In this document: positions 3,310 to 21,348 of the stretch, piece by piece
Layout of the letters: every line of letters starts with the position of its first letter
Numbering within the stretch: the first letter of the stretch is position 1
DNA from: a virus
IMG/VR virus record: IMGVR_UViG_3300030520_001138
Location: 1 to 21,348 of that record
Length of the DNA: 21,348 bases
Reading direction: 5' to 3' (one strand)
Made by a program: the position numbers and the translations under genes
Notes under the pieces: model-generated
Databases searched by the model: none
What the model was told of the DNA's origin: nothing
Seen by the model: the letters and a program-made list of their open reading frames with translations, nothing else

Positions 3310-3564
3310 GTGAACATCATCTGTAAGGTGCGCGGCCACAAGCGCGATCGACATCGAGTCTGGTACGACGATATGGACTGGCGGACGAACTGCAGTCGCT
3401 GTGACCAGCCGCTCATAAAGGATCATCACACGCAAGCTTGGCGTCAGTTTGATCCGGCAGTGGATTTGCCGCTCGGTCGCAAAGGCAGATCCGAGCGTCG
3501 TAAAAAGATCAGCGCAACCGTTGCGCCAAGGGTCACACCGTTCCGGCCGGATAGTCAGGCATAG
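3310..3564 (+). CDS. DUF1660-like small zinc-ribbon protein
   Basis: An 84-residue protein starting MNIICKVRGHKRDRHR with CSRCDQ later. A CxxxGHK box followed about 25 residues on by CxxC is the signature of the short prophage proteins grouped as DUF1660; the Cys and His residues probably bind one zinc. The C-terminal third is basic (GRKGRSERRKK). The start is GTG, preceded by GGGGGG at 3296-3301. Its last 32 bases overlap the convergent gene ending at 3533. A shorter relative is encoded at 19025-19159 at the other end of the element. Function unknown. Confidence 0.65.
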   Translation: MNIICKVRGHKRDRHRVWYDDMDWRTNCSRCDQPLIKDHHTQAWRQFDPAVDLPLGRKGRSERRKKISATVAPRVTPFRPDSQA

Positions 3565-4259: not shown

Positions 4260-4547
4260 TCAGGGTTGAGGGTCCAGCGCCGCCTGAGCGGTCTCGCCAG
4301 GTTTCAGGGTAACGTCGGGCTGGACGGGGTTCGGCGTGGCAGCGCTCGCGATGTCGAGGGCCTTGCCAGTGTTGTCGGCGTTCTTCGCCGAGCCGCTGCT
4401 GCTGCCGATCCAATAGCCCCAGGCGCCAGCGAAGGCGGCGATCAGCGCGCCGTTCATCGTCTCGCTGGGGTTGAAGATGTAGGCGCCGCCGAACAGCAGG
4501 ATGATGGTGTATGAGATCGCGAAACGCGGATCGAGAAAGGTGTTCAT
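4260..4547 (-). CDS. Small two-span membrane protein (holin-like candidate)
   Basis: A 95-residue protein. Two hydrophobic helices lie at about 9-26 (FAISYTIILLFGGAYIF) and 31-48 (MNGALIAAFAGAWGYWIG), joined by a tight acidic turn. A flexible tail rich in Ala, Asn and Pro follows. The ATG at 4547 has GGGAG six bases upstream. Its stop overlaps the ribosome site of the next gene. Two-span proteins with a soluble tail next to an endolysin are often holins or antiholins, but an alternative holin candidate lies at 6948-7271, so the assignment is open. Confidence 0.65.
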   Translation of the reverse strand: MNTFLDPRFAISYTIILLFGGAYIFNPSETMNGALIAAFAGAWGYWIGSSSGSAKNADNTGKALDIASAATPNPVQPDVTLKPGETAQAALDPQP

Positions 4548-4641
4548 GGGATGCTCCCGAAGGGCTAGGCACGGGGGAATTGTTTCTGTCGGGGAGCGCT
4601 GATCATGTGCCGCAAATTTCCAGCAGCGAGGAGTGATCGCG

Positions 4642-4851
4642 GTGGCTGAACGCGACCCCGAATTATCGAGTGACGACCGCAGGCACCCGTATGAGCGGTG
4701 CCCAACTCAGACGCCCAGCGAACTTCATGACAACCCGGAGGCCCAAGCCGGCCCTGGTTGGGGCGTGCTACTGGTCGGAGTCTTTGCAGCGATCGTGATC
4801 CTGCTCTTGTGGAGGTATCTGATCCTCAGCCTATGGCGCCAGCTTTCTTGA
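4642..4851 (+). CDS. Tail-anchored small membrane protein, opposite strand
   Basis: A 69-residue protein from a GTG at 4642, with GAGGAG at 4628-4633 eight bases upstream; an in-frame GTG at 4633 overlaps that site and is less likely. The first 40 residues are polar (MAERDPELSSDDRRHPYERC). A single transmembrane helix (GVLLVGVFAAIVILLLWRYL) lies near the C-terminus. It sits divergently to the gene at 4260-4547 inside an otherwise leftward block, so it needs its own promoter. No family is recognised. The clear ribosome site and helix favour a real gene. Confidence 0.5.
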   Translation: MAERDPELSSDDRRHPYERCPTQTPSELHDNPEAQAGPGWGVLLVGVFAAIVILLLWRYLILSLWRQLS

Positions 4852-4912
4852 ATTGCCGCTCTCCGCAGAACACGATGAGGCTATGCTTCTCGGCGTTCAT
4901 GGAGCGCTGCCG

Positions 4913-5101
4913 CTAGCGATCAAGGATGAAGGCGTTCGGATCGCGGCGATGCGCCGCCATGATCTTCGGGCAGGCCTCGTACGAATGATCCTTGCCGCCG
5001 CAGTATGAGCAGCGCAGATGCATGCGCGCCGACGAGCCGCCATAGGTGTGCGGGCAAAGAGGCTTCATGTGGCGCTCGGAGCCGCAGTAGGTGCACCTCA
5101 T
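4913..5101 (-). CDS. Twin CCHC zinc-knuckle protein
   Basis: A 62-residue basic protein made almost wholly of two zinc knuckles: C3-x2-C6-x4-H11-x4-C16 and C31-x2-C34-x4-H39-x4-C44 (CTYCGSERHMKPLC and CSYCGGKDHSYEAC). This is the CX2CX4HX4C spacing of retroviral nucleocapsid and eukaryotic RNA-binding knuckles, which bind single-stranded nucleic acid. The ATG overlaps the endolysin stop (ATGA at 5098-5101), so the two are co-translated. Its coupling to lysis genes is notable because an RNA-binding job is not expected there. Function unknown. Confidence 0.8.
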   Translation of the reverse strand: MRCTYCGSERHMKPLCPHTYGGSSARMHLRCSYCGGKDHSYEACPKIMAAHRRDPNAFILDR

Positions 5102-5616
5102 GCCGCGTTCGCCGGCAACAAGCCTTCGGTGAGCAGCGTCCGCACCTTGGCCGTCACCTCGCCGCGGGTGATGTCGTGATCATGGTTGAGGTCGAGCCCC
5201 TCGTTTTCGAGGTAGAGCTTGGGATGATCGCCGCCGGCCTCGAACAGGATCGCGCTATCCGACTCGCCGACGCCGGCAGGCCATAGGATTGCGCAGTAGA
5301 GATCGCCGAGGTTGTGCAGCCGTCCCCGCCATGGCCGGAAGTAGAGGTCGACATAGTCCAGCTGCGCGAGCGCGGTCATAGCGGCGAGCTTGGCCGTGGT
5401 GGTGTGCAGCTGGCCTACCGTCTGCGGCATGAACTGGATGAGACCGACGGCACCGCTGCCGGCAGCGTTGCGAACGACAGCCGTGAACTTGCGTCCGGTC
5501 TCCCACGCCATGCAGGCCATCAGGTCCGACGGGTCGCAGCCGAGACCGTCGGCTATCGCGCGCACGCGATCACGAAAGGCGGGCGCGACGAGGCGCCCCC
5601 AGGCGAGTGGGTTCAT
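5098..5616 (-). CDS. Lysozyme-fold endolysin (SLT-like) with an EF-hand-type loop
   Basis: A 172-residue peptidoglycan-cleaving enzyme. MAWETGRKF puts the probable catalytic Glu at residue 39, and GSGAVGLIQFMPQT (54-66) is the substrate-groove motif of the SLT/transglycosylase lysozyme fold. The core ends near residue 125. The C-terminal part carries LDLNHDHDITRGE (141-153), which matches the 12-position EF-hand loop with D, N, D, D and a final E153, so it may bind calcium. There is no signal peptide, so export needs a holin. The ATG at 5616 has GGAAGGA upstream. It is the first gene after the hairpin array when read in the late direction. Confidence 0.85.
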   Translation of the reverse strand: MNPLAWGRLVAPAFRDRVRAIADGLGCDPSDLMACMAWETGRKFTAVVRNAAGSGAVGLIQFMPQTVGQLHTTTAKLAAMTALAQLDYVDLYFRPWRGRLHNLGDLYCAILWPAGVGESDSAILFEAGGDHPKLYLENEGLDLNHDHDITRGEVTAKVRTLLTEGLLPANAA

Positions 5617-5650
5617 GGACCTATCCTTCCGTGTTTGTTAGGGCCCGAGC

Positions 5651-5721
5651 AGGCTGGGAATCTTGTTGGGAAACTTGTTCCGGCTTAGAGCCCTGCCGCG
5701 TTGACCTCGCCGGCAGGGTTC
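5651..5721 (+). repeat. Hairpin unit 1
   Basis: Hairpin 1 pairs 5651-5660 with 5678-5686 (one bulged G at 5658; wobbles 5652/5685 and 5655/5682). A5687 is the linker. Hairpin 2 pairs 5688-5698 with 5711-5721 (11 pairs; one wobble, 5690/5719). The T5694-A5715 pair and its neighbour C5693-G5716 are exchanged relative to unit 2. Confidence 0.65.
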
Positions 5722-5774
5722 GCCCCTGCGGATCGCGCGGACCTATTTTTCGACGTCAGTAGTTTTGCCACGCA

Positions 5775-5844
5775 GGGTGTCGGGATGTTTCCAAACAAAC
5801 GATGCCTAGAGCCTCGCCGCGTGCCCTAAACCGCGGCGAGGCTC
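5775..5844 (+). repeat. Hairpin unit 2
   Basis: Hairpin 1 pairs 5775-5781 with 5801-5807 and includes three G.U-type pairs. A5808 is the linker. Hairpin 2 pairs 5809-5821 with 5832-5844, 13 perfect pairs around a 10-base loop, followed by gcTTTT. This is the unit most like an intrinsic terminator on the plus strand. Confidence 0.7.
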
Positions 5845-5900
5845 GCTTTTCAAAACCGCGGTGGACGTCGCACTTCGAAAGGCGCATTTGATTGCGATGC

Positions 5901-5963
5901 CACCCATCCAGGGGTGACACTCTCTCACTGACCCTGCCGCCTACAAGCGGGGGGGTTTTCTTT
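5901..5963 (+). terminator. Diverged hairpin unit 3 ending in a T-run (plus-strand terminator)
   Basis: CACCC at 5901-5905 pairs with GGGTG at 5912-5916. A second stem pairs 5931-5940 with 5947-5956 (one G-G mismatch), and its top strand CCCTGCCG matches hairpin 2 of units 1 and 4. TTTTCTTT follows at 5955-5962, making it a good intrinsic terminator for rightward transcription. No rightward protein gene lies upstream within the gap, so it would end a non-coding transcript. The lead-in gcgatgc is shared with unit 4. Confidence 0.6.
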
Positions 5964-6011
5964 AGAAGTTGACGCTGGGCCCGATCGCTGACGTAAGCAG
6001 TTTAGCGATGC

Positions 6012-6085
6012 AGGGCCGGCAACTCCTGCAAAAACCGTCCGGCCTTAGAGCCCTGCCGTAATCGTCCCTGACCTCGGCGGGGCTC
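6012..6085 (+). repeat. Hairpin unit 4
   Basis: Hairpin 1 AGGGCCGG (6012-6019) pairs with CCGGCCTT (6039-6046), with one G.T pair. A6047 is the linker. Hairpin 2 pairs 6048-6058 with 6075-6085, with one T.G pair (6054/6079). The hairpin 1 stem matches unit 7 almost base for base while the loops differ. Confidence 0.7.
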
Positions 6086-6127
6086 GTAGTGCCGGATCTG
6101 TAGTCGATCTAAACGGTTGAGGGCCTT

Positions 6128-6194
6128 AGAGCCGGTTAGCCTCATACCCTCGCCGGTTTTAGAGCCTCGCCGTTGTGAGCCAACGGCGGGGCTC
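6128..6194 (+). repeat. Hairpin unit 5
   Basis: Hairpin 1 AGAGCCGG (6128-6135) pairs with CCGGTTTT (6153-6160), with two G.T pairs. A6161 is the linker. Hairpin 2 pairs 6162-6175 with 6181-6194, 14 pairs (one T.G, 6167/6189) around the 5-base loop tgagc. This is the longest hairpin 2 in the array. Confidence 0.7.
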
Positions 6195-6213
6195 GTTAAG
6201 CATTTGGTAACCA

Positions 6214-6290
6214 GCGGGGTCCAACATCCCCGCGTCGTCTCATGGTCGTGGCGACACGCCTCGCCGGCCTCCCCCACGTGCCGGCGAGGC
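6214..6290 (+). repeat. Diverged hairpin unit 6
   Basis: GCGGGG (6214-6219) pairs with CCCCGC (6228-6233), and GCCTCGCCGGC (6258-6268) pairs perfectly with GCCGGCGAGGC (6280-6290). The second stem shares GCCTCGCCG with hairpin 2 of units 2, 5 and 7 but lacks the leading GA and the single-A linker. Position and stem wording make it a diverged member of the array. Confidence 0.5.
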
Positions 6291-6372
6291 ACCTGATCTC
6301 AGCACAGCGCGCGTAGTGCGGCCGCGCTTGACCAGATATGGACCTATACTTCGATGTTGATAGTGTGACGGA

Positions 6373-6443
6373 AGGGCCGGCGACTTCTGCCAGGGACTTC
6401 CGGCCTTAGAGCCTCGCCGAAACTGAACCTGTCGGCGGGGCTC
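6373..6443 (+). repeat. Hairpin unit 7
   Basis: Hairpin 1 AGGGCCGG (6373-6380) pairs with CCGGCCTT (6400-6407), with one G.T pair; GGAAG (6370-6374) can alternatively pair with CTTCC (6397-6401). A6408 is the linker. Hairpin 2 pairs 6409-6420 with 6432-6443, with one T.G pair. It ends 11 bases before the stop codon of the adjoining leftward gene. Confidence 0.7.
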
Positions 6444-6454
6444 GCCTTAACCGA

Positions 6455-6955
6455 TCAGAGCTTCGGTGCTCCGGCAGCGACAATCCGCGCCGCCGAGATC
6501 GCCGACTTCTCCGCGCTCTCTATGATCTCCTGCTTCTCGCGCTGTTCGCGTACCCGCTTTGCAGCCTGCTGCGCACGCTCCGGGTTCTCCTCGATCAGCG
6601 TGAGAAGCATGGTGAGGGACTGATCAAGATTGTTCATGCGATGCCGCATCACGCCGATCTCTGCCGAGTGGGCCGCATCCTTCGCCTCGATCTTCGCTTC
6701 GTACTCGCGGCGTGTCTCCTCTATCTTCGTCACTTGCGCAGCCGCTCCCGCTTCTAACTTATCGATGCGTTCGAGGAGATCGCCGCGCAGTGAGCCGTCG
6801 GCATCGTTGCGCTGCTTCAGAAGCAGCGGCCGTGAGCGGATCCAGTAGGTCAGCGCGCCACCGACCAACGTCCAGATGCCCGCGCTTGTAAGAATGCTGC
6901 CGAGGGACAGGCCACCCCAGGTCGACAGCGTGGTGAAGGACACGGCATTACCCAT
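6455..6955 (-). CDS. N-terminally anchored coiled-coil protein (spanin-like candidate)
   Basis: A 166-residue protein from the ATG at 6955, with GGGGGAAG upstream; the longer frame to 6985 lacks a good ribosome site. One transmembrane helix lies at about 17-39 (LSLGSILTSAGIWTLVGGALTYW). It is followed by a long charged helical region (50-150) with heptad-like spacing (LLERIDKLEAG, TKIEETRREYEAKIEAK). This is the shape of an inner-membrane spanin such as lambda Rz, though no outer-membrane partner is visible. It overlaps the upstream membrane gene by 8 bases and is the last gene before the hairpin array in the late direction. Confidence 0.7.
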   Translation of the reverse strand: MGNAVSFTTLSTWGGLSLGSILTSAGIWTLVGGALTYWIRSRPLLLKQRNDADGSLRGDLLERIDKLEAGAAAQVTKIEETRREYEAKIEAKDAAHSAEIGVMRHRMNNLDQSLTMLLTLIEENPERAQQAAKRVREQREKQEIIESAEKSAISAARIVAAGAPKL

Positions 6956-7271
6956 TGCGCTTCCCCCGGTAGGCTCGCCCTGCACGGATCGACTGCACGG
7001 CGACGATGAGCGAGAAGACGTAAAGCCCTAGGTGAAATGCCTCGGAGGTGCTGGCGACATACCAGCGGATGTTGAAGCCGAGGACCATCGCCGCGAACAG
7101 CGCGTCGCGAGCCCATAGAACGTCGTGCTCGATCGAGCGGCCGGTGAATACGCGCCAGAGGGAGCCCAGGTTGGTCGCGAGTACATATGTCCATCCAATG
7201 CCGCCGATCACGCGCAGGATGTCGATCAGAGACACGCTCGCGAGCGCGCTCCATAGGTGTGGATGCGTCAT
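6948..7271 (-). CDS. Three-span membrane protein, holin candidate
   Basis: A 107-residue protein from the ATG at 7271, with AAGGAGAT at ideal spacing. Hydrophobic helices lie at about 15-35 (LIDILRVIGGIGWTYVLA), 55-75 (RDALFAAMVLGFNIRWYV) and 79-96 (FHLGLYVFSLIVAVQSI). A basic tail (RAGRAYRGKRNG) ends it. Three helices and a positively charged C-terminus match class I holins, and the endolysin lies in the same operon. The holin role is inferred from topology and context, not from a recognised family. Confidence 0.7.
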   Translation of the reverse strand: MTHPHLWSALASVSLIDILRVIGGIGWTYVLATNLGSLWRVFTGRSIEHDVLWARDALFAAMVLGFNIRWYVASTSEAFHLGLYVFSLIVAVQSIRAGRAYRGKRNG

Positions 7272-7314
7272 GCGATCTCCTTTTAGAGCGGCGCGAGCAC
7301 GCCGGCCTGTGGGA

Positions 7315-7479
7315 CTATTGAGCGGGCGGGACGCTGTTGGGGGTGTCAACTGCCCCCGTCACCTGCTCCGCCTGCGACCGCAGTGCCGCAGCGCTCGCCA
7401 AGTCGCCCATTCGCTCAGCCTGATCCGCGGACGAACTAAGTATCTGCCGCGAGATCGCGGCGCGCTGGTCGTCGTTCAT
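7315..7479 (-). CDS. Small hydrophilic protein between tailspike and holin
   Basis: A 54-residue protein starting MNDDQRAAISRQILSSSADQ. Ala- and Gln-rich helices are followed by a Pro-containing tail. The ATG at 7479 comes one base after the tailspike stop (TAAAATG), so it is probably translated by re-initiation. The open frame extends further upstream only inside the tailspike gene. No family is recognised. It may be a chaperone for the spike, since small genes in that place sometimes are, but there is no direct evidence. Confidence 0.5.
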   Translation of the reverse strand: MNDDQRAAISRQILSSSADQAERMGDLASAAALRSQAEQVTGAVDTPNSVPPAQ

Positions 7480-7480
7480 T

Positions 7481-9319
7481 TTATACCGATCCTGTGTTGC
7501 AGAGGACTTGGAAGATCGTTTCGCCGGGCAGTCCGGCGTCGTTGAGGGCAAAGCCGCTCGCGGGCACCCCGCCAAGCTTCACCGTGACATTGAAGACGCT
7601 ACCCGCCCGATTGGCGGCCGGCATGGCAAACGATGCCGTCAGATCGATATCGCTGTAACCAACGGGGCATGCGACGAACCGGAAACCAGGCTGCTGCACG
7701 CCGTTGAAAAAGAGCAGAACCTGAAGGTTTGCCGCGGCCGCAGACGTATTGTGCATGAGATGATGCATGCTGATCTTGCCACGAGCAGCGCCATCAAACG
7801 TCTGCGGGATGTCGAAGCTGCCGAGTAGCATCGTGTTATCGGATGCGACGGCCGGGCTGTTGACGAGCAGGTCTATCTCATAACCACGCCCATGGCCGAC
7901 GTTGCGTTCCTTCCCCTGCGTGACGACCTGGTAGAGATACTGGCCTCTGAAATCGCAGATGAAGTCGAGCGCATTGTCGATCTTCGCGACATATCCGCTG
8001 GTCCCGGCCAGCAACCCCTGCAGAGACGTCTGGAGCGGACCGCCCTGCAAAAGCTGGATTTCGCTGATGGCGTAATCCTGGATCGGGTTGTTGCTGTCGC
8101 CGGTGATCGTATAGGCTTGGTAGGCGGACGCATCGAGGCCGTTGTTCGTCCAGGTGTGCCCGGCGAAGTGTATGGATATCGCGCCGGAAACCCGCAGCTG
8201 TCCGCTGGTCTGGGCGCCGAGGCGGGCGACCTTGTTGCCGATCTGCTCGAACGACGAGTTTATCAGCGTCAGGCCGAGCAGCCCCAGGGTGCCGTTGCCG
8301 TCCTCCTGGTAGAAGCCGTAGGGGCTGAAGCCCCCGTGGCAGCCCATGAGCAGCAGGGCCCCGATGCCCCCGGGGGACACGCCCGCTATCTTGCTCGTGC
8401 CGTGGGAGCCGTACGTCGCGAACAACGCCCCCGTGAAGACGCAGTCGAAGTAGCGATAGTCGCCGGTGTTTCGCTCCCAATACAGATTGTACCAGCAGTT
8501 CGAGACCTGCAAATTGGTGCCACCAAGATGGCCGGCGTTGTTGTTGTGGACGATGCCCTTGTAAAAGAAGTTGACCGTGACATCGACGAGATGAATGAAG
8601 CCGCAATTCTCGTCGAAGAGGATGCCATTGCCGAGAAAATTGCACGTGGCTGGATTCGAGGATCGTGTCGCGGTGCGGGTCGCCAGGCCAACGATGCCGA
8701 AGCCGCGGAAGGGTGCCGAATTTATCGCCGCGCTATCGGCGACCTTTCCGCCGATGCGAACCAGTGCAAGATTATTGACCGTATCGTTCGGGACGAAGCC
8801 ATTCCAATAGGACAGCGACGACGCGGAAACCATGAGCTTTGTGCACCATGCTCCCTCGCCGACCATCCCCGTAAGCAGCTGCAGCATCTGACTGATGACG
8901 TAGAGGCCGGCCGGAACGTAGATCGGTACGTTAGAGAGGATCGCCAACGCGATCGCCGCCTGAAACGCGGCAGTGTCGTCGGTTACACCATCTCCCACGG
9001 CACCGCATTTGCGGACGTTGACGGCGCCATCGACCGTCAACCTGAAGCCGAGAGGGTTGCCCGAGATCGTGGTGCTGGAAAGAAACGCGGTCTTCGGGTT
9101 CGCGGAGACATACGCCGACGTCACGCTCTGATCGTAGATATAATCTGCGATACCGAGACCAGGTTTGGTGTGGCCCGCCGTTCTTAGCGCTGGCACGCCT
9201 TGGGGTGCGGCGATCCCGCCGGATGCGGCGAAGAGAGCGATAGCCGACACGTTACCGCCGATCCCGCCCACAGGGCCGCGAAGGCCTGGGATTTGCACAG
9301 CGATTGGACCGTTGATCAT
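7481..9319 (-). CDS. Tailspike with pectate-lyase-type beta-helix
   Basis: A 612-residue receptor-binding protein. The N-terminal 95 residues are Gly/Ala-rich and probably attach to the tail. KCGAVGDGVTDDTAAFQAAI (about 104-123) is the hallmark opening of the pectate-lyase-3 fold, followed by VPIYVPAGLYVIS and many short strands rich in Gly, Asn and Ser (residues 150-470) as in right-handed beta-helices. A C-terminal beta-sandwich-like region (about 475-612) may trimerise or bind. Such spikes often cleave surface polysaccharide; whether this one is an enzyme cannot be read from the sequence. Its ATG overlaps the upstream stop (ATGA). Confidence 0.85.
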   Translation of the reverse strand: MINGPIAVQIPGLRGPVGGIGGNVSAIALFAASGGIAAPQGVPALRTAGHTKPGLGIADYIYDQSVTSAYVSANPKTAFLSSTTISGNPLGFRLTVDGAVNVRKCGAVGDGVTDDTAAFQAAIALAILSNVPIYVPAGLYVISQMLQLLTGMVGEGAWCTKLMVSASSLSYWNGFVPNDTVNNLALVRIGGKVADSAAINSAPFRGFGIVGLATRTATRSSNPATCNFLGNGILFDENCGFIHLVDVTVNFFYKGIVHNNNAGHLGGTNLQVSNCWYNLYWERNTGDYRYFDCVFTGALFATYGSHGTSKIAGVSPGGIGALLLMGCHGGFSPYGFYQEDGNGTLGLLGLTLINSSFEQIGNKVARLGAQTSGQLRVSGAISIHFAGHTWTNNGLDASAYQAYTITGDSNNPIQDYAISEIQLLQGGPLQTSLQGLLAGTSGYVAKIDNALDFICDFRGQYLYQVVTQGKERNVGHGRGYEIDLLVNSPAVASDNTMLLGSFDIPQTFDGAARGKISMHHLMHNTSAAAANLQVLLFFNGVQQPGFRFVACPVGYSDIDLTASFAMPAANRAGSVFNVTVKLGGVPASGFALNDAGLPGETIFQVLCNTGSV

Positions 9320-9771: not shown

Positions 9772-11199
9772 TCAGAAATAGGTGATGACGATCGCGAGCC
9801 CGGCGCCGCCTGTGCCGCCATTGCCGCCGTTGCCGGACTGCGATGCCCCGCCGCCGCCCGCGCCCGACCCGTTGGCGCCACCATTGCCGCCGGTGCCGCC
9901 ATTGCCGGCTGCGTAGGCACCACCGCCTCCACCGGACGATCCGACGCGCCCGGCATAGGCGACGCCAACACCGCCATTGCCGCCCGTCGTGGTGCCTGCT
10001 GCAGTATCCTCGTACGTCGCCATGCCGCGGCCCGCAGCGCCTGCATTCTCGACGTTCGCCGCTGTGAAGCCGCCGCCCGAACCGCCGCCATTGCCGCCGG
10101 TCATCATCGAGATGCCGCCAGATGAAGCGACGCCCAATGCAGAACATCCGCCGCCGGCCGAACCACCAACCGGATTGGTTGAAGAGCCGCCCGTCGTCCC
10201 GCTGGCCCCTGCAACAAGCGCCCCCGTGCCAGCTGTAGCGCCTGAACCCGACGAGCCGGCCGAACGAAGCGAACCGGCACCGCCACTCGCCGATGCAACC
10301 GAAGGTGCGCCGCCACCCCCGCCGCCGCCGCCGAATGCCGTGATATACGATCCGAAGATGGTGTTTCCGCCAGCACCGCCGGCAGTCCCGGCACCGGCCG
10401 TCGTGGCTCCAACGCCAGCGGTGCCAGCTGATCCCACGGTTACCGAAACCGACGCGCCTAGATCGCTCGCCAGATAGGTCATATCCGCACGGCCAGCGCC
10501 GCTGCCGCCCGCTCCACCGGACGCGGCGGTCGATGCGGCAACCTTGGGGCCGCCACCGCCGCCGCCTCCACCGCCGAAGAGGATGACGCGAACCGACTTC
10601 GCTCCCGAGAAGGTCACGCTGCCCTTGGCGTCATAGGACAAAGTGATCGACGACGCGGCGAGGCCGGATAGCTTGGATGCGGTCGTCAGGCCGGGCGGGC
10701 CGAGATCTCCGAGTTGCGCGGCCTCTGGCTGCGCTCCGAGCTGCGTGCTGACGTATAGGTGACCCCGGTCGGGGACTTCGGCGGTGTAGCCATCGATCAA
10801 CGTGATGACGCCGTCGACATAGAAGTTCTCAATGCCTTTGATCGGACCGGTCGAGTAGATCGTGATCAGCGTTTCGTTGACGTCGTCTTTGCCATAGGCT
10901 TGGCGATAGACGATCTGGCCGCCGCTATAGCAGCGGCCCATGATATGCGGGATGCCTGCCTGCGGGTCCGACTGCCAAGCCATCGGATTGGCGATCTGCT
11001 GCGGCTTTTTGGCAGTCAGTTCCGCCAGAATGCCGAGTCCGGCCGTCGCGGCAGCCAATGCCGTCGAGGCCGTCGCCACGGACACGCCGACGGCCGTGGT
11101 CGCAGCTGCGGCCGTCGGCCCTATCGAGACGCCATAGGTTGCGACGGCGAGCGCGACGACACCGACAATCTCGGCCGCGGTCCGCAGGAAATGGCTCAT
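9772..11199 (-). CDS. gpJ-type tail tip N-terminus fused to a glycine-rich adhesin domain
   Basis: A 475-residue protein in two unlike parts. Residues 1-193 match the start of tail-tip/host-specificity proteins: a hydrophobic N-terminus, then NPMAWQSDPQAGIPHIMGRC, QAYGKDDVNETL and GIENFYVDG. Residues 194-475 are a glycine-rich tail domain beginning SVTFSGAKSVRVILFGGGG, with runs of up to nine Gly, SVSVTVGSAG and the typical ending AIVITYF. A gpJ is normally about 1000 residues with a hub region, which is missing here. The join is in frame near 10620. I infer that a deletion fused gpJ to a downstream fibre gene. Poly-Gly domains of this sort act as adhesins in T-even gp38, but the families need not be related. 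The ATG overlaps the peptidase stop. Confidence 0.8.
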   Translation of the reverse strand: MSHFLRTAAEIVGVVALAVATYGVSIGPTAAAATTAVGVSVATASTALAAATAGLGILAELTAKKPQQIANPMAWQSDPQAGIPHIMGRCYSGGQIVYRQAYGKDDVNETLITIYSTGPIKGIENFYVDGVITLIDGYTAEVPDRGHLYVSTQLGAQPEAAQLGDLGPPGLTTASKLSGLAASSITLSYDAKGSVTFSGAKSVRVILFGGGGGGGGGPKVAASTAASGGAGGSGAGRADMTYLASDLGASVSVTVGSAGTAGVGATTAGAGTAGGAGGNTIFGSYITAFGGGGGGGGAPSVASASGGAGSLRSAGSSGSGATAGTGALVAGASGTTGGSSTNPVGGSAGGGCSALGVASSGGISMMTGGNGGGSGGGFTAANVENAGAAGRGMATYEDTAAGTTTGGNGGVGVAYAGRVGSSGGGGGAYAAGNGGTGGNGGANGSGAGGGGASQSGNGGNGGTGGAGLAIVITYF

Positions 11200-19595: not shown

Positions 19596-19834
19596 ACCGC
19601 GCCGACAAAGCCAAGCGGACGTTGCTTGGCATAGAGATACCGCGCGACGAGCTGGCCTGCCAAATCGCAGAGGCATCTATGGGGGCGATGCGGCCAATGG
19701 GCTGCACCGCTACCGAGGCACTCGCCAAGGCCGAGGCAATCGATCCGGGGCAGGCGCGTCGCTGGCGCGAAGCCGCTGATCGAGCCGTCCTCTATTTCCA
19801 CAAATGCGTGAACGGAGCGAGGCAACCGTCATGA
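19592..19834 (+). CDS. Small early protein, unknown
   Basis: An 80-residue protein starting MNRADKAKRTLLGIEIPRDE. It has helices ELACQIAEASMGAMRPMGCT and TEALAKAEAIDPGQARRWRE, and a basic C-terminus. The frame is open three codons further up, but the ATG at 19592 overlaps the previous stop (ATGA), the operon's usual pattern. No family is recognised. Confidence 0.6.
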   Translation: MNRADKAKRTLLGIEIPRDELACQIAEASMGAMRPMGCTATEALAKAEAIDPGQARRWREAADRAVLYFHKCVNGARQPS

Positions 19835-20049
19835 CCGACCGCCGGCAAGATAGCCTCCTACGCCTCCCAGCGGTACGCGAGCGAACGGGCCTATCGGCTT
19901 CGACGATCAACCGCCGCGAGGCGGCGGGGACGTTCCCCCAGCGTATCCGCATCGGGGAAAATAGCGTCGCCTGGTATCTGTCCGACGTCGAGGACTTCGT
20001 AGCCGACCCCTTCAGCTACAAGGTCGATCGGGCCGATCGCGCCGCCTGA
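19831..20049 (+). CDS. AlpA-type helix-turn-helix regulator / excisionase-like
   Basis: A 72-residue protein reading LLRLPAVRERTGLSASTINR, then AAGTFPQRIRIGENSVAWYL and SDVEDFVADP. This is the MerR-like winged helix of the AlpA family: a recognition helix with a STI(N/Y)R motif, the FPxxxxxG wing and the W-xxx-E/D-V-xxW/F end. AlpA proteins activate or direct excision of P4-type elements, and this one ends exactly where the convergent integrase gene ends. An in-frame ATG at 19804 lies in the upstream gene; ATGA coupling favours 19831. Confidence 0.85.
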   Translation: MTDRRQDSLLRLPAVRERTGLSASTINRREAAGTFPQRIRIGENSVAWYLSDVEDFVADPFSYKVDRADRAA

Positions 20050-21348
20050 TCAACGATCAGCCGCCCGGCCGTCTACGAGGTCGTTGGCTGGCACGAGGCC
20101 TTCGCACAGCATGTCCGCCCACTCGACCGCCAGCTCGCGGCGCCGGGCAGAGTGCTGGCTGCGATTGTAGGCGAACTCCGACCCCGACAATCCCTTGGGC
20201 TTGTGCGCGAGCATCAGATCGACAACGTGGCGGTCGCCTTCCATGCGCGGCGGCGCCGGGCGGTCGTTCAGCAGCGTCGAGAAGGCCGAGCGCCATCCAT
20301 GCGGAACGTGCCGATCCTGATAGCCCTCGCGCTTGTAGAGGGTTTCCAGCGCGGCCGTCGTCATTGGCCGGCGCGTGGTGCGCTGGCCGGGGAAGAGGAT
20401 CGGGATGCGGCCAGTCAGCCGGTGCAGCGCGCGGAGTAGCTCGACGGCCTGCCGGGGCAGCGGCACGTCGTGCGCGAAAGCCGCCTCGCCCTTGCTCTCT
20501 AGCTCGAGCTTCATGCGCTCGGCCGGGATGCGCCAGATGGCATCGGGTGCTGGCGCGGATGGAACAGTCCAATCGATACCCTCGATTTCGCTCCAAGCTG
20601 CACCAGCGAGCACTCCGGGCCGCACCGCCGTGAGTGCCAATAGCCTAGACGCCAGCTTCGTGGCGGGACCCGCCGTCGAATCGTCGATGCAGCGCATCAG
20701 CGTGCGAAGCTCGCCGAGGTCGGTAAGCGCCGGCTGCTTGCCGCGCACCACGATCGGGCGGAGCGCCTTGCCCACGGTGGCCGCCGGGTCCGTCGGGACG
20801 ATGCCTTCGCTCATCCCGTACACGAATATGGCCGATATATGCTCGCGCCGCCGCTTCGCTGAATCGAGGGAGCCGCGGGCTTCGATCTTGCGCAGCACCC
20901 GGAGGATCATGGGCCCGTCTATGTCCGCCAAGGGAAGCGCCCCGAGATCCGGGAACACGTCGCGCTCAAGCCCCTGCAGTAGCTTTCTCGAATAGGTGGG
21001 CGACCAGCGCGGCCGCTGCGCCTCGTGCCAAGCGCGACCGATCTTCTCCATCGTGGCGCCGGCCGCCGCGTGGGCGGCCATGCGCCGCTTATGCTCCTCG
21101 ACCACCGGATCGCGATGGTCGCGTAGCAGGCGCCGGGCGTCGTCACGGCGATCACGCGCCTGGGCCAGCGTCACCTCGGGATAGCGGCCGAACGTCAGCC
21201 GTTTCTCCTTGTCGGCGAACCGATACTTCATGCGCCAGGACTTCCCGCCCTTGGTCGTCACGAACAGGTATAGGCCCAGCGAATCGCCGAGCTTATAGTC
21301 CTTGTCTTTAGCCTGCGCCTTTCGGCATTGCGCATCGGTTAGCGGCAT
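20050..21348 (-). CDS. P4-type tyrosine integrase
   Basis: A 432-residue site-specific recombinase. Residues 1-90 are the arm-binding domain of P4-like integrases (MPLTDAQCRKAQ, GLYLFVTTKGGKSWRMKYRF, TFGRYPEVTLAQARD). The core-binding helices span about 95-195. The catalytic domain shows Arg243 (LTAVRPGVL), a probable Lys280 (ERMK), His350 and Arg353 (HGWRSAF), His382 and the nucleophile Tyr394 (EFAYNRS). All key residues are present, so the protein should be active. Its start codon is the last base of the window, so promoter and attachment site lie outside. Such integrases usually insert at tRNA genes. It is convergent with, and directly abuts, the AlpA gene. Confidence 0.95.
   Translation of the reverse strand: MPLTDAQCRKAQAKDKDYKLGDSLGLYLFVTTKGGKSWRMKYRFADKEKRLTFGRYPEVTLAQARDRRDDARRLLRDHRDPVVEEHKRRMAAHAAAGATMEKIGRAWHEAQRPRWSPTYSRKLLQGLERDVFPDLGALPLADIDGPMILRVLRKIEARGSLDSAKRRREHISAIFVYGMSEGIVPTDPAATVGKALRPIVVRGKQPALTDLGELRTLMRCIDDSTAGPATKLASRLLALTAVRPGVLAGAAWSEIEGIDWTVPSAPAPDAIWRIPAERMKLELESKGEAAFAHDVPLPRQAVELLRALHRLTGRIPILFPGQRTTRRPMTTAALETLYKREGYQDRHVPHGWRSAFSTLLNDRPAPPRMEGDRHVVDLMLAHKPKGLSGSEFAYNRSQHSARRRELAVEWADMLCEGLVPANDLVDGRAADR

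Follow-up and report, generated by a model that had tools for sequence, protein, structure and literature searches.

A tandem array of two-hairpin units beside the lysin-like gene of a virus with a likely sphingomonad host

The 838-bp gap (5617-6454) between an ORF of no assigned function and the lysin-like gene of a 21.3-kb IMG/VR virus record (IMGVR_UViG_3300030520_001138; "the window" is positions 1 to 21,348 of this record, the whole stretch analysed) is a tandem array of two-hairpin units with a period of 114-124 bp. The repeat is confirmed as being above chance, and its structured form is probably an RNA of the + strand, opposite in sense to the late genes. Our best explanation, held tentatively, is a tandemly amplified and partly decayed cassette of terminator type, read on the + strand beside the lysin gene and acting in cis.

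Layout of the array and its surroundings

The tail genes and the lysin-like gene of the virus lie on the - strand. A bacterial host from the sphingomonads is likely, not proven, because the best plasmid relative of the integrase belongs to Sphingomonas paeninsulae (48.7% identity) and because the left-end DNA of the window matches, among plasmids, that species only. The start codon of the lysin-like gene abuts the array, so that the gene directly adjoins unit 1, and at the other side an ORF in late-gene direction ends just before it. This ORF matched no Pfam or PHROG family, and a 99% identical copy was found only in a further record of this phage. Several other genes were noted: a small zinc-knuckle protein gene (4913-5101, -; CCHC-like, PF21759 borderline) directly downstream of the lysin gene; two small + strand ORFs (3310-3564 and 4633-4851), opposite to the late genes around them and possibly prophage-expressed morons, one DUF1660-like (borderline) and the other with a hydrophobic stretch; an HU/IHF-like DNA-binding protein gene near the left end (772-1071, +; PF00216, E 1.4e-22); an AlpA-family regulator adjoining the integrase (19804-20049, +; PF05930, E 9.5e-12); and a tail-fibre-like protein (9772-11199, -), one long half of which is glycine-rich.

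Direct repeats, identified by a repeat search, run across the gap. Each unit measures about 105-110 nt and consists of a 33-nt leader, a first hairpin (H1), a linker that is usually a single A, and a second hairpin (H2; GAGCC...GGCUC); successive unit starts (Table 1; that of unit 6 is approximate, ~6217) are spaced by 122, 124, 114, 117, 123, and 123 bp. The leader, which begins GGACCUAU... / GGACCTAT, is homologous between units in the unit alignment; in unit 1 its position makes it exactly antisense to the lysin ribosome-binding site. This leader, like the probable + strand opposite the late genes, had escaped the first-pass annotation, in which the units began at the first hairpin; the hairpin pairs described there hold, and the starts shift to 5617, 5739, and so on. 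The coordinates of its five hairpin pairs agree with ours, H2 beginning with GAGCC in all five strong units, and the single A described as common to them is indeed the linker in four; in unit 5 (6127) this A is paired into the stem. The H2 of unit 2 has 13 perfect pairs and is followed by GCTTTTC, and the second hairpin of unit 3 is followed by TTTTCTTT.

Table 1. Units of the array and flanking or reference genes in the window
Feature	Position	Strand	Parts	Match or support
Lysin-like gene	5098-5616	-		PHROG 4928, E 4e-46; tblastn relatives named lytic transglycosylase
Unit 1	5617-5722	+	leader 5617-5650, H1 5651-5686, H2 5688-5721	leave-one-out E 0.0023
Unit 2	5739-5845	+	leader, H1 5776-5807, H2 5809-5844	leave-one-out E 5.5e-6
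Unit 3 (diverged)	5863-5976	+	hairpins ~5895-5921, ~5929-5955	resembles unit 2 (z 3.1, p 0.005)
Unit 4	5977-6086	+	leader, H1 6012-6046, H2 6048-6085	leave-one-out E 1.6e-11
Unit 5	6094-6195	+	leader, H1 6127-6161, H2 6162-6194	leave-one-out E 4e-5
Unit 6 (hardly recognisable)	6217-6339	+	hairpins 6258-6290, ~6293-6338	array phase
Unit 7	6340-6444	+	leader, H1 6373-6407, H2 6409-6443	leave-one-out E 1.3e-9
ORF of no assigned function	6455-6985	-		
Integrase with arm-type DNA-binding domain	20050-21348			

The units' own model scores, being circular, were not taken as proof; in their place, a profile built from four strong units was run on the window with those four masked. In five cases out of five the left-out unit was the best match in the window, on the + strand, at E values between 1.6e-11 and 0.0023, which bears out the earlier description of a shared plan with structure-keeping divergence. 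Pairwise alignments compared with shuffles support every pair among the five strong units (z 2.1 to 8.6), which are about 70-80% alike in aligned columns. By a strict count the gap holds three doublets of adjacent hairpins, whereas GC-rich control loci totalling 238 kb have 0.14 per 838 bp. Besides the five strong units, unit 3 is probably a sixth, its similarity being significant against unit 2 only, and unit 6 would be a seventh that is in phase but has little sequence support (p ~0.05 against units 5 and 7). The first-pass annotation had also placed two diverged units in these gaps; weak but real similarity upholds the former, and the latter is marginal, its hairpins, formerly put at 6214-6233 and 6258-6290, falling in phase at 6258-6290 and 6293-6338. 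No further full-length copy of the unit occurs elsewhere in the window. A coding repeat was rejected, as neither strand has a frame that stays open across all units and the mismatches between units 4 and 7 are distributed 4:6:8 by codon position; tRNA or tmRNA identity was likewise checked and rejected.

Stem conservation and the structured strand

The consensus of H2 in the five strong units is GAGCC[CT][CT]GCCG...CGGC[AG][AG]GG[CT]TC, and it is fully paired in each of them when G-T is counted; for H1, 80% of cells are paired, in an alignment that has one unit out of register. When the partner is shifted by one column, pairing drops from 92% to 53%. Five pairs have changed on both sides, compared to 2.4 in shuffles (22/500). 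The stem covariation proposed by the first-pass annotation is thus present but thin: with only five sequences, related to one another, it is suggestive, not significant. The loops differ between units, as had been described, and carry no conserved motif; among the unpaired parts only the leader is shared.

The strand of the structured molecule was judged from wobbles and fold energies. In a stem search that scored G-T and A-C alike, the gap has 10 G-T against 1 A-C on the + strand, while the rest of the window has 169 against 161; because changes are shared by descent, the independent wobble events are fewer than this ratio implies, about seven by our count. The whole gap folds at z -12.3 on the + strand and -7.2 on the - strand, the + strand folds better in eight of the ten hairpins of the strong units, and on the - strand four of the five H2 stems contain an A-C mismatch. 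The wobble bias and the fold energies both favour the + strand, so that the structured RNA is probably that of the + strand; it is thus probable that the units are not just parts of the late mRNA. Being in line with the late genes and directly before the lysin gene, and having in unit 2 an H2 that is perfect on both strands, the array could be taken for part of the late (-) mRNA, either a structured leader or a processing region, through which lysin expression is attenuated or stabilised, but the A-C mismatches, the weaker fold, and the lack of any U-tract after the hairpins on that strand make this very unlikely.

Relatives of the array and its possible function

Relatives were sought widely. 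No homologous array was found by blastn against phage and plasmid records, by exact H2 and leader patterns in 2.9 million IMG/VR viral contigs (where the leader pattern had no match at all), or with the unit model in about 80 viral loci that carry related lysins. The same holds for about 390 genomes each from Pseudomonadota and from the class and the family of genome G224 (partly overlapping samples; the ExbB protein of G224, the reference of the latter two, is closest to Phyllobacterium), although absence there is weak evidence because these samples may hold few sphingomonads. No Rfam family matched at gathering score, the best weak match being far below its cut-off, in keeping with the earlier statement that no named family has this plan; the arrays that the first-pass annotation had anticipated in other phages did not turn up in any of these searches. 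Several candidates were discarded: exact 14-mer matches in 70 viral contigs, which come without the hairpin unless the contig is of this very phage; two H2-pattern matches (L091, L092), generic perfect hairpins in another virus; and three covariance-model matches in genomes (L090, L097, L098), at chance level given the number of genomes, of which L097 and L098 appear to lie within coding sequence. In everything searched so far, the array is private to one phage. The second record of this phage (IMGVR_UViG_3300030906_000086; 15 kb) matches the window at 99.99% identity from position 6342 onwards. Its contig ends where unit 7 begins, as though the hairpin array had defeated assembly or sequencing, and therefore does not confirm the array as a whole.

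In the lysin relatives that were checked, the stretch before the lysin gene measures at most 268 bp. The array might be an inert relic, produced by repeated tandem duplication upstream of the lysin gene and drifting under no selected function: it is confined to one phage, related phages do without it, its units have diverged to about 70-80% likeness, and two of them are nearly gone. A relic should, however, lose both its stems and any strand preference. Here the stems are kept while the loops drift, with five pairs changed on both sides, and the wobbles are one-sided, so that we regard a relic as rather unlikely.

In the related phage L002, the lysin is 88% identical and, by the same count, preceded by 109 bp. 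These 109 bp hold a hairpin pair, of which the one GC-rich hairpin, with its tail, reads GGCCCCGC...GCGGGGCC-CTTTTC on the strand opposite the lysin. The likeness to the array is one of plan and place only, not of sequence. Elsewhere in L002, at 9950-10790 (- strand), a cluster of GC-rich hairpins, two of them doublets with TTTTT tails on the strand opposite the lysin, lies downstream in a convergent zone that separates the late genes from a gene for an ImmA-like peptidase; these look like strong intrinsic terminators around an 85-aa ORF.

The reading of the array as an amplified terminator cassette is favoured because of its strand, the strength of its stems, two U-rich tails, and the comparison with L002. 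On the + strand, the H2 of the five strong units has 11-14 pairs and a folding energy of -22.4 to -27.6 kcal/mol, as befits the stable GC-rich hairpin of an intrinsic terminator. A single cassette of leader and two stacked hairpins upstream of the lysin gene would have been amplified in tandem and have partly decayed; its + strand would be transcribed from the lysis side, possibly by way of the + strand ORFs there (one of them DUF1660-like, borderline); and the array, whose H2 has a terminator-type stem, would stop or slow this transcription and thereby keep antisense RNA out of the tail genes. Against such a role, the U-rich tract of 7-9 nt that should come right after the hairpin is missing from the array, TTTT tails occurring on the + strand only after units 2 and 3 while four of six units have no U-tract; the H2 loops, at 5-16 nt, are long beside the average of about 4 nt in Zymomonas terminators; a terminator needs neither leader nor H1; the likeness to L002 does not extend to sequence; and a scan of 4400-7500 for sigma-70-like sites showed no promoter-like site near the array.

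The units could also be multicopy small + strand RNAs that act in trans or in cis, each unit yielding its own RNA or all being cut from a longer one; a leader could, for example, pair with the lysin ribosome-binding site and so delay lysis. Tandem copies of about 105-110 nt with two hairpins each agree with this, as does the + strand bias of the wobbles. The leaders of units 2 and 7 also pair with the region around the lysin start, at about -25 kcal/mol, which is stronger than in 98-99% of shuffles. This pairing, however, is explained without selection, because the units descend in common with unit 1, the exact antisense, and the leader of unit 4 pairs with the lysin start no better than shuffles. 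In addition, the sigma-70 scan showed no promoter-like site near the array, there is no conserved loop motif, and only two units end in a U-tract. Small RNAs of this kind are therefore unlikely in our view, and it is more doubtful still that five to seven antisense RNAs bind the lysin ribosome-binding site in concert, as a multicopy antisense timer that determines when lysis occurs.

With stems kept, sequence drifting, and the structured strand opposite a lysis gene, the array lends itself to testing whether phage lysis is under antisense control, and equally to studying how terminators or small RNAs multiply in a genome as compact as this. Should it prove to be no more than a relic or an amplified terminator, it would be a minor curiosity.

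Comparison with known systems

Two kinds of repeated elements resemble the array superficially. The RNA of type III toxin-antitoxin systems consists of tandem structured repeats beside a gene, but the units of this array have about three times the length and have diverged much further; no toxin family is present among the neighbouring genes, and beyond the array the + strand offers no downstream toxin gene, being antisense to ORF 6455-6985. REP/BIME elements are diverged palindromes that cluster between genes and are dispersed over many intergenic regions. The array likewise is a cluster of diverged palindromes, but it is not dispersed, no copy occurring elsewhere in the window or in the searched sequences.

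Intrinsic terminators and multicopy small RNAs come closer. In the sphingomonad Zymomonas mobilis, for which transcript ends have been mapped, terminators combine a U-tract with a stem of about 11 bp and a loop that averages about 4 nt (PMC7566282). The array shares with them the GC-rich stems of at least about 11 pairs and at most -15 kcal/mol, as well as the U-rich tail in two units; it differs in its paired hairpins, its conserved leader, its five to seven tandem copies, its longer loops, and the absence of most U-tracts. LhrC1-5 of Listeria are expressed multicopy small RNAs with CU-rich target motifs common to the copies (PMC6794450). Like them, the array has five copies of a structured RNA (105-114 nt), homologous by the leave-one-out test, and a possible pairing with a ribosome-binding site. 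Unlike LhrC, it shows no target-binding motif shared in its unpaired parts, since the loops are not conserved and the leader alone is common; no promoter is seen, and the units are antisense in a phage late region. The array belongs with the tandem structured RNA elements, and has part of what defines an intrinsic terminator and part of what defines a multicopy small RNA.
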